Virus record (IMG/VR): IMGVR_UViG_3300034103_002323 | Span: 1 to 26,154 of that record | Strand: one strand, 5' to 3' | DNA: 26,154 nucleotides | Origin: a virus | Shown: positions 6,892 through 18,086 of the stretch, one piece after another | How positions within the stretch are numbered: the first letter of the stretch is position 1 | Layout: each line of letters begins with the position of its first letter | Notes under the pieces: model-generated | Told to the model about the DNA's origin: nothing | Databases searched by the model: none | Seen by the model: only the letters and a program-made list of their open reading frames with translations | Translations under genes and position numbers: made by a program

Positions 6892-7900
6892 TCAAGCGTT
6901 AAAGGAGTAAGCAACGGTGGCGAAATCAGCGTTCAGAAGTTCGAAACCTGCGTACAGGCTCCAAATCATCATGATAAAACGGCTGAAGTCGTCGTTGTTA
7001 TTCAGAAGCACCTGAGCGTTGTTGCCGCCGATGCCGACGCCCACGCTCTGGGGACCGAAGAACATACCGATTGCACTCTCGTAAGACTTCGATGTGCCGC
7101 CGATGGTGGCAGTCTGACTCTGAGAGGGCATGTTGGTCGATTCGAAGAAGCGAACGCCTTCGAACACGAAACCGGTGGGCATGATGGGCTCACCAGCCAC
7201 GAAGCTGGCTTGACCAAAGCCTTGACCCATGTAGATAGCAGCGTTGGGCTGCATACCGGACATGAGGGGGTTGATCTGACCGTTGCCAGGATAACGAGCC
7301 ACTTCACGGAAGTCGCTGTTCTGACGCAGGTGCATCAGGAAGGTAGGATCGCAAACACAGCGATAGAAACCGTCCTGATAAGTAGGAACGTTACGCTTAC
7401 GCAGGCTCTTCACCACGCGCAGCAGGTCGTCCTTCACGTCGAACTTGGCTTGTTCGGCGTTGGAGTAGGTCAGCGAACCGACGGCAAGATCACCAGGGTA
7501 GTAGTAACCACCTTGGGTGTCGGAAGCTTGGCCTTTGGAAACTGCTTTCAGGAGTTCGTTAATGAACACCCGGTCACGCCAACGACGATAGTCGTCGAGC
7601 AGAGTCAGCGAACCGATGGACTGGTGGAAAGCGGTGAGGTTACCGGTATCCAGCAGCAGGCGCTGTGCAGTGATCAGGGTTTCCCGAGCAATCTTAAAGG
7701 TGCTCGGCTGAGTGGGATCGGACGGATCAGCAGGACCGGTGTACTCCTTAAGAGTCACCAGCACTTTGTCCTTCACAATGTTGCGGCTGTTAGCAGTACC
7801 GATGGTCTGCTCTGCAGTACGCTCACGGGATTCCTTGCTGCCGGGGTTACCCCAGAAGCGATAACGATCAAGCTGAACGGTCTGGCCGGGTTGTTTGCTA
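6892..7900 (-). CDS. Major capsid protein, exon 2 (C-terminal ~336 residues)
   Basis: This exon carries most of the capsid protein. The frame continues upstream of the GTG at 7776 to about 7900, where the intron begins; a GTG start at 7776 would cut off a conserved-looking stretch (KQPGQTVQLDRYRFWGNPGS). The segments GFYRCVCDPTFLMHLRQNSD and, later, FEGVRFFESTNMP resemble the end of N4 gp56-type capsid proteins, where a G-V-R-F-x-E-T/S-N-x-P signature is typical. Joined to exon 1 (8884-9002) it gives about 375 residues, a normal size for an HK97-fold capsid protein. It follows portal and scaffold genes as expected. The splice point at 7900/7901 is inferred from frame and group I rules, with an alternative one base away. 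Confidence 0.85.
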
Positions 7901-8883
7901 CCTGTAATGCTTTAATAAGCACCGAGAGGCTCTTTATCCTCTCGTAACATCAACTTAAGGGCGTTGATGAGTAGACTATATCTTCACCCACAGCAGGATT
8001 TTCCTCTGTTTGGGTGCTCCGCACTCGTGTCACCTTATCGGCTTCTACAACAAAGTTGTTGCGGTCAGCCTCGCTCCATTTTGACTTTCCTCGATTAGTT
8101 CGAGTGTCATAACGGAGGTCAAATTTGTATTGCATAGCTTTACAACCATAAGGCTTAAGTGCTTCTACAAAATTCCTAGCGTTTGTTCCGTTAGCACGAA
8201 GATTCCACAAATTTGGATTCTTTTTAGCTGAAGGTACGCGAGGAGTTAAAGAAGCTCCTGTAAGACTTTCTATCCAATCTGATACCGTCAAAGCAGTATC
8301 ATAAGGGACGTATAAAGCCAGCTCTACAATGCGTTCCCTAATGTAAGGTTCCCCGGTTCGCGTAGATTGGCCACGCTTTCGCAGGTGTAAGTTCCCGTCG
8401 TCCATGTACAGAACGGCAAGACCCTCTAAACCAATATCCCTTAGGAAAGTAGCTGTAAAAACTTTCTTCCCTTGAGGATACAGTTCCCTATAAATAGGTA
8501 CTAACAGCTCGTTCTGATTAGACCACCACTGACAGGAAGGAAAAGTTCCGGTCTGGCAGTCAGACTCGCGATCCTTTATGGGCTGTTTAATACCCAGAAT
8601 TCGGTTTAAGCGCCCCACTTTCCAGCGAAGGAACTCAAACTGTTTTCTTGAATGGGCTATGTGGAGACTAGGGTAAGTAGTCACCTGCCGTAAATGGCCG
8701 TCACCCAAACAAACCCCTTTTAAAAAGGAGCGATCGCTACGAGAGAGCATTTGAGCAGTGTTAGTCGTTGAACCTTCCAACCATTTCTGATTGGCTTGGC
8801 TGCTGATTGGCCTCCCTTTCGGGTCCGGCGTTCCAGCAATTCACGGAGTTTAACCTAAAGGCTTTCACCTAAAGGGACTCTAG
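7901..8883 (-). ncRNA. Group I self-splicing intron in the major capsid gene (~983 nt)
   Basis: Minus-strand core elements appear in canonical order: P-like AATTGCTGGAA (8841-8831), Q-like AATCAGCAGCCAAG (8808-8795), R-like GGTTCAACGACTAA (8774-8761) and S-like AAGATATAGTC (7984-7974). R and S can form P7 (GACTA with TAGTC). The endonuclease frame fills the loop between R and S, the P8 region. Best junction: exon 1 ends ...ATGGGT (8884), whose U can pair with G in an internal guide GUCC; the intron ends ...ATTACAGG (7901). P10 could form between CTA at the intron start and TAG at the exon 2 start. A second in-frame option (intron 8881-7902) cannot be excluded. Exon 1 meets an in-frame TAG right at the junction, so splicing is required. 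Confidence 0.88.
7950..8750 (-). CDS. LAGLIDADG homing endonuclease encoded in the group I intron
   Basis: A 266-residue protein from ATG 8750; a TTG 30 nt upstream is possible but lies in the conserved R element. It has two LAGLIDADG-type helices, FLKGVCLGDGHL (about 9-20) and GLEGLAVLYMDDGNL (about 107-121), each ending in the acidic residue expected at the active site. The second resembles the W/L-Y-M-D-D-G motif of the LAGLIDADG_2 family found in group I introns. Such enzymes cut the intronless allele and promote intron homing; some also act as maturases. The last codons overlap the intron S element, a common compact arrangement. There is no strong ribosome site. The frame is intact, so the enzyme may be active. 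Confidence 0.9.
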   Translation of the reverse strand: MLSRSDRSFLKGVCLGDGHLRQVTTYPSLHIAHSRKQFEFLRWKVGRLNRILGIKQPIKDRESDCQTGTFPSCQWWSNQNELLVPIYRELYPQGKKVFTATFLRDIGLEGLAVLYMDDGNLHLRKRGQSTRTGEPYIRERIVELALYVPYDTALTVSDWIESLTGASLTPRVPSAKKNPNLWNLRANGTNARNFVEALKPYGCKAMQYKFDLRYDTRTNRGKSKWSEADRNNFVVEADKVTRVRSTQTEENPAVGEDIVYSSTPLS

Positions 8884-9002
8884 ACCCATGGGTCCAAGTC
8901 ATGCACCACAACCGGCTCTGCAGCCATCTCTACAACATACGCTGGGTGCGGACGGTAGAGCTCTGCGCCGAGCAGCTTCGGAAAATCATTGTCGACGAAC
9001 AA
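8884..9002 (-). CDS. Major capsid protein, exon 1 (N-terminal 39-40 residues)
   Basis: A short 5' exon, easily missed because it starts with TTG and meets a stop (TAG) at the intron border. From TTG 9002 it reads (f)M-FVDNDFPKLLGAELYRP and ends ...HDLDPWV. A ribosome site, GGAGG (9011-9015), lies 8 nt upstream. No ATG or GTG exists in frame between the upstream in-frame TAG and this codon, so TTG is the only reasonable start. The reading phase at 8884 (two bases of a Val codon) fits exon 2 at 7900, giving ...DPWVSKQPGQ... after splicing. The alternative junction would give DPWVCSKQ. Confidence 0.82.
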
Positions 9003-9082: not shown

Positions 9083-9796
9083 TTAACCTAATTTACGGCT
9101 GAGATTACGTACGCTCTCTGGCAGTTGGTAGTAAATGGAGCCATAATTGGAAACATATCTGGCCGCACCGCCGCGATACATGAATCTAAAAGGAACGGAC
9201 ATAAGCCCAGGTTCTTCCGTACGAACTGTCTGCGTATACGTCTTGCAGTACACCGGCGGGTTATAAACCCACTCAGATCGATTAGAAGTTCCCAGCGGAC
9301 CTAGCGAATTGGTAAGGATGCCTCCTTCGTATCGCCCGTGGGTGACGCCGCCGCCGGTTATGCCTTGCTGCCCTGTGTTACCAGTTGGCGTATTGTACGG
9401 ATCATATACTTGAGAGTCGGGTGCAGAGCCTCCAAAGTACGTAAATTTTCCTGCGTCCCGGACGCCATAATCCGGTCCGGTAAAAGTCTGAACTTTACGA
9501 CCGGCAATCGTATTAACAGTGACGGGCCGGTAACCCTGGTACGAGCTTAGAACACCGCTCGGTGCGTAATCGATGTTTTCGTAGTCAGTCCAATACCCAG
9601 AGATCGCCGCAGGAACTTGCCGCCACGCGGTCGAATACGTACCGCTGTAGCTAGGTGAGCCAGCGACAATCCTGCCTACGTCTGCTCCGGTATCTTGAAT
9701 ACCAGAACTGACTACGACATAACCTTGATGAGAGGGTCCGGTCTGTACCTGATGAGGCCCAGAATCATAGTTGTAATTTCGATACGATATATACAT
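9083..9796 (-). CDS. Tyr/Gly-rich virion protein candidate, 237 aa
   Basis: A 237-residue protein extremely rich in Tyr, Gly, Ser and Thr (for example MYISYRNYNYDSGPHQ at the start and VSNYGSIYYQLPESVRN near the end), with very few Lys and no membrane segment. Such composition suggests an extended beta-rich or glycine-loop structural protein. A single Cys is in VYCKTYTQTVRTEEPG (about 185-200). It lies between the small coiled-coil gene and the capsid gene, in the same operon. The ATG at 9796 has no clear ribosome site. The family is not recognised; a virion role is inferred from position. Confidence 0.75.
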   Translation of the reverse strand: MYISYRNYNYDSGPHQVQTGPSHQGYVVVSSGIQDTGADVGRIVAGSPSYSGTYSTAWRQVPAAISGYWTDYENIDYAPSGVLSSYQGYRPVTVNTIAGRKVQTFTGPDYGVRDAGKFTYFGGSAPDSQVYDPYNTPTGNTGQQGITGGGVTHGRYEGGILTNSLGPLGTSNRSEWVYNPPVYCKTYTQTVRTEEPGLMSVPFRFMYRGGAARYVSNYGSIYYQLPESVRNLSRKLG

Positions 9797-10333: not shown

Positions 10334-11287
10334 TCAGGCTTGATCCAAGAACAACAGTTTGGCTCGCAGAGACTCAGGAGACATGTTGTTCAGGTAACGC
10401 CAAGCTTGATCAGGAGCTTGGTTCATAACCTGGCCAAACTGTTCCCACTGCGCGTTGGGGTCTTGAGTACGCTGACCGCCGGTAGCAGCGGCAGGCACAG
10501 CAGGCACCTGATCGTAGTTGGGTGTATAGGACTGCTGTTGGAGAGCAGTGCGAGCGTTATCGGCAGCGATCTGTTCGTCGGTGCGAAGATCGGTGGGATA
10601 CACCTCGGTGAAGAACCGGTTGGTGTAGTCAGCCAGATGATCAGGATCAGTCAGAATCTGCTCCATAGCCATGCCACGGGTGGCAATTTGCTCCAGAGTC
10701 TGATGCTGTTGGATCAGCGCATCCTCCAGGGTGGTGGAGTACTGATTCAAGATCGCAGGCGCTTCGAGGCCGAAGTGGTTAACGACGGCGGCGCTTGCTT
10801 GGCTTAACTGCGGCTCCTGCGCCGTAGAAGTCGGCGAGGAAATTGGGGTCGTATAGACGCTGTTGGATAAGGTCGGCTGAACCGTAGGGGGTTGGTAAGC
10901 CCAGGGCTGTTGGGCCTGTAAAGCCAGATTGCTCTGTTGAATATCCGGCGCCGCTACCTGGGGCTGCGCTAACGATGCTGTCTGGCTGAGGGACGGGGAG
11001 AGCCGGGAGACGATCCGGTCCAGGCTGCCCAGCGCTGCCTCCCATGGGTTGCTCGGGGAGGAGGCTGACGGAAACTGGCTGGACTGGCTGTTGATAGAAG
11101 GGACCGTAGCCAGTTGTGCCGGCGACGGCGCTTGGGCTGTAGTTGCCGAAGCTACCGCCGGGGTAGGGGTTTGCGCCACCCACTGAGGGTAGACGGTTGA
11201 GCCCATATCCGGGGAGAAGGCCGCCTGGGGCGCCGCTACTGCCGGGGAGACCGGGCTCGGGGTCGAAGCTGGGATCGCTTGGCTCAT
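10334..11287 (-). CDS. Probable capsid scaffolding protein, overlapping the portal gene
   Basis: A 317-residue protein placed between portal and capsid genes, where scaffolds usually lie. Residues 1-170 are Pro/Ser/Ala/Gln rich and probably disordered, with a short helix (NPWEAALGSLDRIVSRL, about 82-98). Residues 175-245 are helical and acidic (EQILTDPDHLADYTNRFFTE), and the C-terminus is a helix ending AKLLFLDQA. An acidic Gln-rich helical protein with a charged tail fits scaffold proteins. The start is uncertain: ATG 11287 or ATG 11206, neither with a ribosome site. From 11287, 509 nt are shared with the portal gene in another frame. The well-folded C-terminal half lies outside the overlap. 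Confidence 0.78.
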   Translation of the reverse strand: MSQAIPASTPSPVSPAVAAPQAAFSPDMGSTVYPQWVAQTPTPAVASATTAQAPSPAQLATVPSINSQSSQFPSASSPSNPWEAALGSLDRIVSRLSPSLSQTASLAQPQVAAPDIQQSNLALQAQQPWAYQPPTVQPTLSNSVYTTPISSPTSTAQEPQLSQASAAVVNHFGLEAPAILNQYSTTLEDALIQQHQTLEQIATRGMAMEQILTDPDHLADYTNRFFTEVYPTDLRTDEQIAADNARTALQQQSYTPNYDQVPAVPAAATGGQRTQDPNAQWEQFGQVMNQAPDQAWRYLNNMSPESLRAKLLFLDQA

Positions 11288-13019
11288 AGCTGCCCGAGTA
11301 AGTTAGTTCTTGCGCGAGGTGATCGAATGTGCGGTAGAGGAGAGGCGTTATATTTAACCTCGGATCTGCCGCTAAGGGCTGGGTCGGCGCAAGAGGGTGC
11401 GGCGACTGCATCAGCTGATTTAATGTTAGCAGGAAATTTTGTAGTGCGGCTTGCGTTTGTTGAATCATTCTGAAGGGGAAACCCTTCAACATTTCCGCTC
11501 GTTCTAAATCACTTTTATCTGGGAACAAGTAACGCAGCGCTTCCACGCTGTCAACACCTAGCTCCTGAAGATTTCGAACAACGATCGATTTCTGGTTGAT
11601 GTCGTAAGCGGTGTCTTCATAAACATCGCCTTGGAATCGATACGTTACTTCTCTATCTCCGTCTGGCGGAAGACCAAAAACTCCACCAGGTACTTTGTTT
11701 TCAGAGAGGGCCGTTTGAATAGCAAGATCTACATCCTGCTCGTACTTAGCCAGCTTCTTTTGATAACGTTCCGCTGCTTCCGGAGTTTCTTCTTTTGGCT
11801 CCTTGGGAGGAGTCAAACCCATGACAGAAATAAAACTCTCGCGGAAAACCTGCTCCTGGTGGTAAACAATCATTTCCAGCAGTCGGCAGAAGCCGTAGCT
11901 CAAAAAACTCTTATTTTTACGAAGAGCAGTCGCTTGAGCACGACCCATAAGGCCCTTAATTTCCGTCGCAGTGGCACCGGCGCTAATCGATATTTCGTCA
12001 ACGCCGCCGAGTGCGGTTCGAATTTCTTCTCGTAGTAACAACGCATATCGATTCATGTCCCCGTTTACGGGGTCAGGGGTCATGTAACCAACCCGATCCG
12101 ACGGCTCTACGTTGGCAATAATTCGAGGAACTCGAAGACCCCCGATACCAGACTGCGATCCGAACGGATCTGAGACCCTCGTGGAAGGAGAATCTAAACC
12201 GCCAAATCCGCTTTGACTGCTGATCGTCGGACGGAAGTTACGATCGGTATCACTCGCCTCCACCAGATCACTACGCGGACGCGAACTGATCAGAGTCGGA
12301 TTACCAAAGAACTCAATGTTCTTGGCAATATTCTGCATCATTTGATCATGCAGAACGATCTGCTGCATGAACGGCTCGAATTCACCTTCGCCTTCGGTAC
12401 CGCTGGCGTTCGGCTTGTTTAAAACCTCCACGGCGGGGATAAACCCCAGCGTATTTGGCCGACTATTGCGCGGAGTAATGACAGAGCCTGGCTCTAAGTC
12501 AAAACTCAGCTCCGTGTCGGCTTCGTACTCTGTGATCGTCTCGGCCGTAATTGAGATACGGACGTACCTCTTGTTCTGCCCGTAAGTATTTGAAGGCAGT
12601 CCTAAATTGCCGTTTTTAACTTTGTACGAATAAAGGATTACGACTTCTTCAATCTCTCCGTTTAGATCGTGGTAAACCCGATACTGGTTTTTGTTAAAAA
12701 AGTAAATCTGATACTTCAGCTTGGGATCGGGTCTGAAATAGAAAAGACCCGAACCGTCAATCAAAAAATTCCGAACGATAGCCGGGAAACGGATATCAAG
12801 TTTATTAAGTTTTATCAGATCATCTAGAAACTTACTACGAGCTTTATACGTATCTTGTTCACAGTAAAAAAACAGACCCTTCTTGATCATAAGAAGGGTC
12901 ATCTGCTGCACATGACTCAGTACCACCATCGTGGCGGACTGCTTTGAGCGATCCTGAGTCCGAGCTGCCTCCAGAATCTCACTGAATCGTCCCCGGACGC
13001 TTAAAAGATCTGCAGGCAT
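10779..13019 (-). CDS. Portal protein, 746 aa
   Basis: The portal forms the twelve-subunit ring through which DNA enters the head. The first ~570 residues look like a portal core: helix-rich N-terminus, a beta-rich wing (KYQIYFFNKNQYRVYHDLNG), a long LREEIRTALGGVDEISISAG segment of the clip/stem type, and a helical crown region (VEALRYLFPDKSDLERAEML). The tail from about residue 578 to 746 is Pro/Gly/Tyr-rich and ends in five basic residues (KRRRR). This tail corresponds almost exactly to the stretch shared with the scaffold gene. Portal cores are often 450-600 residues, so the tail is an extension. The gene follows the GT17 gene by 18 nt; ATG 13019 has no ribosome site. Identification is by size, order and pattern. 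Confidence 0.85.
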   Translation of the reverse strand: MPADLLSVRGRFSEILEAARTQDRSKQSATMVVLSHVQQMTLLMIKKGLFFYCEQDTYKARSKFLDDLIKLNKLDIRFPAIVRNFLIDGSGLFYFRPDPKLKYQIYFFNKNQYRVYHDLNGEIEEVVILYSYKVKNGNLGLPSNTYGQNKRYVRISITAETITEYEADTELSFDLEPGSVITPRNSRPNTLGFIPAVEVLNKPNASGTEGEGEFEPFMQQIVLHDQMMQNIAKNIEFFGNPTLISSRPRSDLVEASDTDRNFRPTISSQSGFGGLDSPSTRVSDPFGSQSGIGGLRVPRIIANVEPSDRVGYMTPDPVNGDMNRYALLLREEIRTALGGVDEISISAGATATEIKGLMGRAQATALRKNKSFLSYGFCRLLEMIVYHQEQVFRESFISVMGLTPPKEPKEETPEAAERYQKKLAKYEQDVDLAIQTALSENKVPGGVFGLPPDGDREVTYRFQGDVYEDTAYDINQKSIVVRNLQELGVDSVEALRYLFPDKSDLERAEMLKGFPFRMIQQTQAALQNFLLTLNQLMQSPHPLAPTQPLAADPRLNITPLLYRTFDHLAQELTYSGSYEPSDPSFDPEPGLPGSSGAPGGLLPGYGLNRLPSVGGANPYPGGSFGNYSPSAVAGTTGYGPFYQQPVQPVSVSLLPEQPMGGSAGQPGPDRLPALPVPQPDSIVSAAPGSGAGYSTEQSGFTGPTALGLPTPYGSADLIQQRLYDPNFLADFYGAGAAVKPSKRRRR

Positions 13020-13037
13020 TTTACAAAAACGACGTTA

Positions 13038-13880
13038 TCAGGAGTCCGGAAGAAGGTACTCCTTCACTCGTTCTAGTTTAAACAATTCTGGCGGTAAAAG
13101 ATCATGCGGATACGAGGTCAGCAGATGATCTTTGCGACCGAGCGGATCTGTGCCACCCGCCTCCGCTTTGTAATTATCTAAATAGCTCAGCATCTCCTCG
13201 CTGTACGCAGGAGCATGAGCATTTGGAATGTCGTCATAGCAGTGCGAGAAAGACGTCAGTTTGCGCTTAAGGCGATCAGGCCCTCCCATCCAACTAAAAT
13301 GCCATCCTGCATCACAGTCTCCTACCACAAGATCGTTGGGGTTCTGGCGAATCTCCGAAAGAGTTTGATCTAGATGATCGTGAAGAACGACGGTCCCGCA
13401 GGTCCAGTTGGTCGGGGGTTTCGTCTTATCCCCGTCCGGGCTCATAACACGAAGATCTGCCCGCCCGTACATCATCGGCATAGAAAGACGCACACAACGT
13501 GCAGGATCTTCTTTAGCGAGCTCTACAGCTTCTAAAAGAGCAGACGGCTTAGGAATCTCGTCGACATCAGAGAAGAAGAAGACCGAATCCGGCGGCGTCA
13601 TCCGCATACCCACGGCAAGAGCGTCGCGCTGAGCGTATTCGCGGACCCAAGGGTTAGGAGCGATATCCGGCGGCGGCAGTTCGACGTGCAGCACCTGAAG
13701 TTTATCTTCAGGCAGACCGAGTTTTCGAATCGTCTCTAAACAAGTGAACGGTTTTTCGTCGCCCTTAAAAGTCCGGTTGGCGTCGGTAATGATGAAGCCG
13801 TCAACAATATCTTTAAGAATTTCTACGCGAAGTTCGAGCAGCTCAGCTTCGTTGAAATAGAGAAAACAATCAAAGAGCAT
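13038..13880 (-). CDS. Glycosyltransferase family 17-like protein
   Basis: A 280-residue protein from ATG 13880. An upstream in-frame TTG at 13913 is less likely, because MLFDCFLYFNEAELLELR is the usual start of this family. The pattern FDxFxxFNExxLLxxR, then a Asp-Ala-Asn-Arg-Thr-Phe-Lys-Gly segment, and later FFFSDVDEIP (acidic metal and nucleotide-sugar site) match GT17 enzymes, whose animal members add N-acetylglucosamine to mannose. Phage and bacterial GT17 members probably transfer sugars to other glycans. No membrane segment, so cytoplasmic. It sits among virion genes just before the portal gene, suggesting late expression. Confidence 0.88.
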   Translation of the reverse strand: MLFDCFLYFNEAELLELRVEILKDIVDGFIITDANRTFKGDEKPFTCLETIRKLGLPEDKLQVLHVELPPPDIAPNPWVREYAQRDALAVGMRMTPPDSVFFFSDVDEIPKPSALLEAVELAKEDPARCVRLSMPMMYGRADLRVMSPDGDKTKPPTNWTCGTVVLHDHLDQTLSEIRQNPNDLVVGDCDAGWHFSWMGGPDRLKRKLTSFSHCYDDIPNAHAPAYSEEMLSYLDNYKAEAGGTDPLGRKDHLLTSYPHDLLPPELFKLERVKEYLLPDS

Positions 13881-13932
13881 GGAAGGCCGAAACGGGCCTG
13901 CACAGCTTAGCAAGATTTGCTATAAAAAGCAC

Positions 13933-16562: not shown

Positions 16563-18086
16563 TCAATACTCAACTGAAAAACTGCCCCGACGCTGTAAGA
16601 AAGTGATTAACCAAGTGTATGCGTCCAATAAATCGTCATGGGCTGTAGCACCTACATTAATCAACTGATCGAAGAGCGCATCGAACTTGCGATATTTGTT
16701 AAAGACGACTTTCTGGTTCTCCAAAAGACCAAGCGTGCCTCTAAAACGAGCAATTTTATCGCCCCTGAACCCTTTAACTTCGTGAATATGAAGGTTACTG
16801 AGGCCCCTTTCGTTCAGAAGAACTCGCCGGAGATCCGCAGCAAGGCTTGCCTGATATGCCACGGATTCGACAACAAGCGTCACGGTGGAATACGTCGGCT
16901 GATACTCACCGTTGTACTTAGTTAGGATGCCCCACTCAAGCAACATGTCGCATAGAAGGTCTATTTTTTCAAGGTTTCCTATAGAACGACACTGATGCGC
17001 ATCAACGATATAATACTTATCTTTTAATCGGCCCCCTAGAACAAAAGCTGTGTAGTCCGAAGTCTCATTTTTGCTTGCTGAAAGGTCGATGCCGAGGGCC
17101 AAACTGTCGAATTCGGTCGCCACGTCACCTTTAATCAACAGATCCGGGGAAACGACAAGGTCGCTCGTGGCCACAGGTTGCTGCTGATACTGAAAACAGA
17201 AAGCAACGGGATCAAGTTCTTTCTGCTGCAATAGGTAGTCAACAGACCATTGAGTCTGCCAGTAACTTTTGGGCTGACCCTTATCGTCGTACGTCAGTGC
17301 CTCTTGAGTTACTTGCTTCCACCCTTTCTCCGGAACGAACATTGTCTTGTGGATGTCGAGCGGATGAAATCGCGTACCCAAGCAAATAGATCGACCGCCC
17401 TCAAACACAATAGGAGCAATAACACTACTCCAGTTATTATTCATCTCCTCACGAATCGTAGGATTCTTGATATCAGCTGAACTTTTTATAGGGTCATCGA
17501 TTAACACTAAATGAGCTCGTTTAGACGTAATACTACCGCGTAGTCCTGCTGCCCTTAGAGTAAATTCTTCATCACCTAATCGAGGAATACCGGCGTAGTC
17601 GTAATCAATCGACCAGCCGATATCCGATTGCATTCCTGGCTTGAGTCGACATGTCGGAAAAATTTTACGAAATTCTGATGAGTCAACGATCTGTCGAATA
17701 ATCCGTGATTTAGGGATAGCTGTAGCAATGTTATAACTCACGTAGATAATCTGCAAAGGTCTTTTTGCAGCAGTATGACGTCCTATACACCATGCCGTAA
17801 ACATATTGAGAACGGTCGACTTAGCCGAACCTCTCGGTGCTAAAATATCAAGATTAAGACCAGCAATATCTAATAAGTACTTGTTGCTTTCGTTTGTTAC
17901 CAAGTGCTCGTGCCATTCGAGCATGTGAGGCGCGGGGGGCTTGTCTAAAAGCGTACAGAAAGTATGAAAGTCATTAGACGCTTTAGTATAAATAGTTTCT
18001 ATTACGTTACTATCGCCGGCTTCGATCGCTTTAAGTGCACGTAGTTGGGCGCCACGGCGGTAGGCAAAACTCTCCCTACTAGGCAT
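16563..18086 (-). CDS. terL: Terminase large subunit (DNA-packaging ATPase/nuclease)
   Basis: A 507-residue motor that translocates DNA into the head and cuts it at the start and end of packaging. Walker A is APRGSAKST (83-91), of the type seen in T7-like and many cyanophage terminases. Walker B is LVLIDDP (193-199), and LGTRFHPLD (237-245) is the coupling motif. The C-terminal RNase H-type nuclease shows GIDLSAS (Asp334), VVESVA (Glu407) and HDDLLDA (Asp484/485/488), so all expected acidic residues are present. Length is normal. ATG 18086 lies 54 nt from the divergent GT4 start, so its promoter must be in or upstream of that gap; no ribosome site is visible. Confidence 0.95.
   Translation of the reverse strand: MPSRESFAYRRGAQLRALKAIEAGDSNVIETIYTKASNDFHTFCTLLDKPPAPHMLEWHEHLVTNESNKYLLDIAGLNLDILAPRGSAKSTVLNMFTAWCIGRHTAAKRPLQIIYVSYNIATAIPKSRIIRQIVDSSEFRKIFPTCRLKPGMQSDIGWSIDYDYAGIPRLGDEEFTLRAAGLRGSITSKRAHLVLIDDPIKSSADIKNPTIREEMNNNWSSVIAPIVFEGGRSICLGTRFHPLDIHKTMFVPEKGWKQVTQEALTYDDKGQPKSYWQTQWSVDYLLQQKELDPVAFCFQYQQQPVATSDLVVSPDLLIKGDVATEFDSLALGIDLSASKNETSDYTAFVLGGRLKDKYYIVDAHQCRSIGNLEKIDLLCDMLLEWGILTKYNGEYQPTYSTVTLVVESVAYQASLAADLRRVLLNERGLSNLHIHEVKGFRGDKIARFRGTLGLLENQKVVFNKYRKFDALFDQLINVGATAHDDLLDAYTWLITFLQRRGSFSVEY

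Follow-up and report, generated by a model that had tools for sequence, protein, structure and literature searches.

Gene arrangement in the head module

The analysed stretch of DNA, called the window here, is a virus record of 26,154 bases to which the phage collection has no close match at the DNA level. Its minus strand carries, among others, the genes for the terminase, the portal protein, a 317-aa protein and the capsid protein in this order. The portal gene belongs to a head module and lies on the same strand as the nearby terminase large subunit (16563..18086), which is located upstream of it. The portal open reading frame (10779-13019, minus strand) encodes 746 residues, and a second open reading frame on the same strand (10334-11287) encodes 317. 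This second frame is shifted by +1 against that of the portal, and its start lies within portal codon 578. The two frames share 509 nt (10779-11287, minus strand), corresponding to portal residues 578-746 plus the stop codon in one frame and to 169 full codons of the 317-aa protein in the other. Both frames are open over the whole shared stretch, and recomputing the open reading frame coordinates reproduced to the base the overlap described in an earlier note on this DNA. Outside the overlap remain the portal core (residues 1-577, 11289..13019, minus strand) and the C-terminal half of the 317-aa candidate scaffold (10334..10778, minus strand).

The gene directly upstream of the portal gene (13038-13913, minus strand) has a match to glycosyltransferase family 17 (Pfam PF04724, E 1.7e-16). 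The capsid gene of the window is split. Its coding sequence breaks off near 8890 and resumes near 7899 with the downstream exon of the major capsid protein (6892..7899, minus strand, upper end approximate), and a group I intron lies in between (7948-8891, minus strand; Rfam RF00028, E 5.1e-11, 48.7 bits compared to a gathering score of 50). The intron carries a LAGLIDADG endonuclease (7950-8780), and related endonucleases are present in 11 other fetched loci. The capsid frame is uninterrupted in L003-L006 and L008. In the related Synechococcus phage S-EIV1 (L082) the capsid gene is an open frame of 385 codons (12311-13465), over which the database record places an antisense CDS in the first half (AHV82227) and only a 156-aa CDS (AHV82228) in the second half.

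The portal protein and its tail

The portal protein matches PHROG 20475, annotated as 'virion structural protein' (E 8.6e-159), and the portal family PHROG 64 (E 5.5e-10). A tblastn search of the phage collection returned a single record, that of the cyanophage S-EIV1 with 42% identity, and a sequence search of the PDB gave no match. The AlphaFold model, built with 75 sequences, has a mean pLDDT of 58. Values are mostly above 50 up to about residue 573, the chief exception being residues 239-356, while the tail reaches ten-residue means of only 26-50 and is thus predicted to be disordered, as had been supposed. Foldseek found 61 PDB matches with E <= 0.001, and the 50 that were listed are portals or portal/neck/tail complexes; the TM-scores, by query length, are low (0.19-0.29). 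Judged by this model, the protein has the fold of a tailed-phage portal. Within the tail, residues 713-731 (GSADL..., 10827..10883, minus strand) contain short predicted helices and the positions G713, D716 and P725, which are invariant in 75 sequences. The tail ends with the basic sequence KPSKRRRR in translation (10782..10805, minus strand), and most of the aligned relatives have basic ends as well.

The 317-aa protein as candidate scaffold

The AlphaFold model of the 317-aa protein is poor (mean pLDDT 49). It predicts mostly disorder up to about residue 160, in agreement with the disordered N-terminal half that had been proposed, and helices beyond. The C-terminal helices at residues 277-314 (10346..10459, minus strand) have ten-residue pLDDT means of 91, 89, and 80 over residues 281-310. 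In the N-terminal half, residues 80-95 (NPWEAALGSLDRIVSR, 11003..11050, minus strand) include a predicted helix at 81-95. N80, P81, and W82 of this motif are conserved in at least 90% of 75 sequences, and A85 is invariant.

Sequence comparisons did not connect the protein to a known scaffold. In PHROGs the best E-value was 0.26 (a family of 21 members), the PDB gave no sequence match at E <= 5, and a kinship with gp9 of T7 was dismissed at an hhalign probability of about 0. The sole Pfam match, CCDC53 (E 0.003), is below the cut-off of the family. In the BFVD viral set the model had one significant match, a 133-residue entry that, based on its length, might be the truncated protein of S-EIV1. 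Scaffolds typically combine a disordered N-terminal half with a helical C-terminal end, and they diverge fast. A missing sequence match is therefore weak evidence. Because of its position, composition, and predicted shape the 317-aa protein probably works as scaffold, although it is assigned to no scaffold family. It is unlikely, but deserves some weight, that it is instead another head protein such as an internal core or ejection protein. The absence of similarity to known scaffolds and the low confidence of the model would be in accordance with this, as would the fact that the gene is not placed beside the capsid gene, to which an ORF of 237 aa (9083-9796, without PHROG or Pfam match) is closer. 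However, the gene is situated between the portal and capsid genes, all on one strand, and the predicted order of disordered and helical halves is what is generally known from scaffolds.

Conservation of the overlap in relatives

In total, 254 sequences were examined: the window, 80 close relatives, S-EIV1, 80 relatives of S-EIV1, ten genome contigs, 81 further viral contigs, and one sequence (G279) from a genome of the same phylum as Nodosilinea. At most the best 80 loci were kept per viral scan, and the sequences are not equivalent to independent genomes. Twenty sequences were not evaluable, 19 because the portal end is missing and one because the portal frame breaks early. In all of the remaining 234 sequences the second frame is open across the portal end, and 233 of these were counted again with one script. 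The overlap is found in 78 of 78 evaluable sequences of the window clade (81 looked at, three running off the contig), in 80 of 80 of the S-EIV1 clade (81 looked at, one running off; in six of the 80 the second frame shows less than 200 nt beyond the portal stop), in all ten genome contigs, in 65 of 65 of the marine clade together with L174 (81 looked at, 15 running off and one with an early portal stop), and in G279. Among the sequences with the overlap are that of S-EIV1 and one located in the genome of Nodosilinea nodulosa, and none of the portal relatives that were fetched lacks it. A premature portal stop in close relatives, which the earlier note had named as a finding that would speak against it, does not occur in the 78 of 81 sequences in which the portal end is present. 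The portal cores of eight representatives are only 36-66% identical to each other. Judged by its persistence with portal cores down to 36% identity, this long overlap is also ancient, and the group of cyanophage-related viruses that has it is widespread.

The one early stop concerns a marine locus (L182), in which the portal frame ends after about 211 codons, at about 3633 and far from the overlap, while the match continues; a frameshift, an intron, or an assembly error could each account for it. Of the 386 genomes searched in the phylum to which Nodosilinea belongs, only Nodosilinea itself and G279 contain a relative, both with the overlap. These two loci (L172, 8001-10905, from Nodosilinea nodulosa PCC 7104, and L256 from G279) represent provirus or virus-derived regions of the lineage in bacterial genomes. 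Nine further contigs of the lineage (L163-L171) are assigned to Euryarchaeota, Rhodobacteraceae, Crocinitomicaceae, Blastopirellula or bacterial assemblies, mostly MAGs. They probably represent viral sequences that were carried along in the binning, and their host labels are therefore not trustworthy.

How surprising an open second frame is in a single genome was estimated by swapping portal codons for synonyms at the gene's own usage. The second frame of the window stayed open in 2% of 2000 such shuffles. Nine genomes had been chosen and eight were scored (L162 was outside the complete set), with the frame open in 0.05-13% of the shuffles. The open frame of one genome is thus only moderately surprising. 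That the overlap is not due to chance follows from its conservation across the relatives and not from the open frame in one genome. The third frame of the same strand is open over the overlap in none of 210 sequences.

Start site of the second frame

The ATG of the second frame (11285..11287, minus strand; ATGAGCCA) is present in all 81 sequences of the window and its 80 close relatives. For the later candidate start at 11206, just 40 of the 81 have an ATG at the corresponding distance. A scaffold start only near 10790, also named in advance as contrary evidence, has left no sign in the close relatives. Six codons upstream of the ATG the second frame is closed by a TGA or TAA stop (11303..11305, minus strand) in 80 of the 81, the exception being L079. 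A clear Shine-Dalgarno sequence is absent from the 30 nt preceding the ATG in the window clade. In the S-EIV1 clade, whose start is located about 12 nt further upstream, all 80 evaluable sequences have AAAAGGAG seven bases before the ATG, written within the portal codons CAA AAG GAG ATG. The first start in the marine clade and L174 is a GTG with an upstream AGGAG in 60 of 65 sequences; the five sequences without AGGAG have four ATG starts and one GTG. The length of the overlap differs between the branches. In S-EIV1 the ATG is found 551 nt before the portal stop and the protein would comprise 325 residues, the overlap at the Nodosilinea locus is 683 nt long, and in G279 the start is about 31 codons into the portal tail with an overlap of 344 nt.

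Because Shine-Dalgarno-like sites are embedded in the relatives, we infer that the second frame is expressed by internal initiation. Programmed frameshifting from the portal frame, yielding a portal-scaffold fusion instead of or besides the free protein, would also suit two genes on the same strand in different frames, and in phage SPP1 a structural gene is described as yielding a product by +1 frameshifting (PMC6316719). However, it is very improbable here given the conserved start codon, the spaced Shine-Dalgarno-like site in two clades, and the stop that the window clade keeps in the second frame just ahead of the ATG.

Selection on both reading frames

In the +1 geometry the third positions of portal codons are second positions of the second frame, and third positions of the second frame are first positions of portal codons. 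Selection was measured as pairwise site differences and not by fitting a codon model for two frames. The tests were restricted to complete gene pairs whose scaffolds are less than 95% identical to each other, which left 33 of 72 in clade A (S-EIV1 excluded), 33 of 71 in clade B, and 34 of 61 in the marine clade. L251-L254 were left out of the marine set, and L174 was never part of it.

The variation at fourfold sites of the portal frame drops from 0.611 outside to 0.231 inside the overlap in the window clade (33 genomes), from 0.532 to 0.120 in the S-EIV1 clade (33 genomes), and from 0.631 to 0.279 in the marine clade (34 genomes). Fourfold sites of the second frame behave correspondingly, rising from 0.235 in the overlap to 0.521 after it in the window clade, from 0.267 to 0.470 in the S-EIV1 clade, and from 0.394 to 0.543 in the marine clade. 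In the window clade variation recovers abruptly at the portal stop, from 0.19 to 0.48 in adjacent blocks of 25 codons. The per-frame synonymous analysis in relatives that the earlier note had suggested thus gives low variation in the overlap for both frames in three clades, and this pattern indicates that purifying selection acts on both frames. Together with the conservation in 234 of 234 sequences, the fourfold-site drop supports the claim of real dual coding. At the amino acid level the portal tail is more variable than the core (0.28 compared to 0.16 in the window clade, 0.27 compared to 0.14 in the S-EIV1 clade).

These data bear on the possibility that only the non-overlapping C-terminal half of the second protein is made, as in the S-EIV1 record, where AHV82225 has its ATG 22 nt downstream of the portal stop codon and covers the last 133 of the 325 residues. 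The open frame would then be a by-product of the Pro/Gly codons of the portal tail, and with shuffle frequencies of 0.0005-0.129 in eight genomes such a frame is not very rare. However, a by-product would account neither for the collapse of portal-frame fourfold variation in three clades nor for the conserved start and NPW motif nor for the Shine-Dalgarno-like sites placed at the embedded start, and the next start codon that the second frame of the window offers near the portal stop is just a TTG at +31. We regard this possibility as extremely unlikely.

The constraint is not evenly distributed. Portal first and third positions were compared in blocks of ten codons. In the window clade the constraint falls on the portal frame in the first block, at 119-209 nt (PYPGGSFGNYSPSAVAGTTGYGPFYQQPVQ), and at 329-389 nt, and on the second frame at 29-119 nt and at 239-299 nt, the latter stretch holding PWEAALGSLDRIVSR; distances are counted from the second start, and the pattern is mixed elsewhere. 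None of 2000 codon-order shuffles in clade A and none of 2000 in clade B reached the variance of the smoothed frame difference. Thus, the two frames take turns along the overlap in both clades tested (A and B). The predicted scaffold helix at residues 81-95 falls where the second frame dominates, and the stretch with the short helices of the portal tail (residues 716-731) is dominated by the portal frame in the S-EIV1 clade and mixed in the window clade.

Low synonymous variation upstream of the second start

The reduced synonymous variation already begins 150-250 nt upstream of the second start. In the portal codons just upstream of it (11288..11447, minus strand) the fourfold value is 0.39-0.43 compared to 0.61 for the whole core, and in the S-EIV1 clade the dip amounts to 0.27-0.35. 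Because it extends beyond the second start, some other constraint must act upstream too. Runs of nearly invariant synonymous sites, which are perhaps a promoter or an RNA element, are patchy in the window clade (about -142 to -122, at about 11409-11429 of the window) and in the S-EIV1 clade form a nearly invariant block at about -262 to -230 (L082 10489-10511). A further overlapping frame was discarded as the cause, with stops in both other same-strand frames in 33 of 33 sequences of each clade; the three antisense frames have stops in 26, 33, and 33 of 33 sequences in clade A and in 33, 33, and 25 of 33 in clade B. An upstream RNA structure showed little covariation (5 of 76 pairs with two-sided change, term -1.17, in 22 S-EIV1-clade sequences) and is not claimed. 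A second copy of the conserved block with less than seven mismatches in 23 was not found in the 20-kb S-EIV1 locus.

In principle, the low variation could stem not from a second protein but from an RNA element, a local mutation cold spot, recombination, or a recent sweep, and both the early onset of the dip and the nearly invariant block about 250 nt upstream in the S-EIV1 clade would fit such a cause. It would, however, have to end right at the portal stop in the window clade, where variation recovers, and to switch its position-specific pattern between the frames along the overlap. In addition, the upstream RNA fold hardly covaries and the third frame is not kept open. We therefore consider it extremely unlikely as an explanation of the low variation within the overlap.

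Origin and function of the overlap

It is very likely, as far as can be judged from the comparison of sequences, that two real head-assembly genes share the 509 nt, namely the portal gene and an internally initiated gene for a 317-aa protein, most likely the scaffold. Ribosomes starting at 13019 would produce the 746-aa portal with its core, the disordered Pro/Gly-rich tail, the GSADL motif, and the basic end. Within the portal cistron, initiation by a second ribosome at 11287, in a frame shifted by one base, would yield the 317-aa protein, whose disordered N-terminal half would contain one conserved NPW helix and be followed by the helical C-terminal half. As disorder prevails in both overlapping halves, the sequence could be shared out between the two frames, with short motifs of one protein placed over tolerant linkers of the other. 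We also infer that linking the synthesis of the scaffold to the message of the portal might be advantageous, and coupling of the portal and the 317-aa protein is plausible.

The earlier note had further proposed that the portal tail or the head of the scaffold arose by overprinting. This part of the proposal did not gain support, as the overlap is already present in every relative sampled and codon usage is conflicting. It is the scaffold frame that comes nearer to native usage in 22 of 33 loci of clade A, 4 of 33 of clade B, and none of the ten genome contigs, and because the groups conflict the codon-usage test for the older frame was dropped as evidence. The shorter overlap in G279, one sequence and the deepest relative, would fit a start that moved upstream in the other branches. 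It is possible, but we think rather doubtful, that the overlap defines the lineage and predates the split of the S-EIV1-like, marine, and cyanobacterial-provirus branches, that the portal tail and the head of the scaffold touch in the procapsid and cannot change independently, and that the embedded ribosome site sets the scaffold-to-portal ratio. The genome of S-EIV1 comprises 79,178 bases and has no obvious need to save 500 of them, yet the overlap survived. It provides a natural test of whether overlaps persist through compression, through coupling of expression, or through constraints between partner proteins.

Comparison with known systems

Nested or out-of-frame gene overlaps are well known in phages, for example C/Nu3 and Rz/Rz1 of lambda and A/B and D/E of phiX174. 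The lambda C/Nu3 pair involves a scaffold but is in frame, Rz/Rz1 serves lysis, and phiX174 is a small single-stranded-DNA phage. A survey reports that 61% of dsDNA virus genomes as annotated contain overlaps of more than 50 nt and that the largest overlap shared across families is 185 nt, counting only 95% nucleotide similarity (PMC7017920), so that these figures are not directly comparable with a deeply diverged overlap. A portal-scaffold overlap is not reported among the literature matches listed, a coverage outside of which most subscription journals fall. Thus, while overlapping genes as such are already known, a long, deeply conserved out-of-frame overlap of a portal and a candidate scaffold gene appears to be new.

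The division of nucleotides between the two frames resembles that of the tat/rev and rev/env overlaps of HIV-1, for which PMC9119678 describes functional segregation with key motifs placed over linkers of the other protein. The HIV-1 overlaps concern retroviral genes and their analysis included experiments, whereas phage assembly genes and conservation alone are considered here. In T7 the functions follow the same order, with gene 8 (portal), gene 9 (scaffold), and gene 10 (capsid), and the scaffold is of similar size (307 aa). However, T7 genes 8 and 9 do not overlap but are separated by 99 nt. S-EIV1 (KJ410740) shares with the window both the homologous portal (AHV82224, 42% identity) and the homologous second gene, which is likewise in the +1 frame. 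Its record differs from the reading proposed for the window in that the overlap is missing from the annotation, which lists AHV82224 and AHV82225 as hypothetical proteins, and an annotation that avoids overlaps can in this way miss the larger part of a head-assembly protein.
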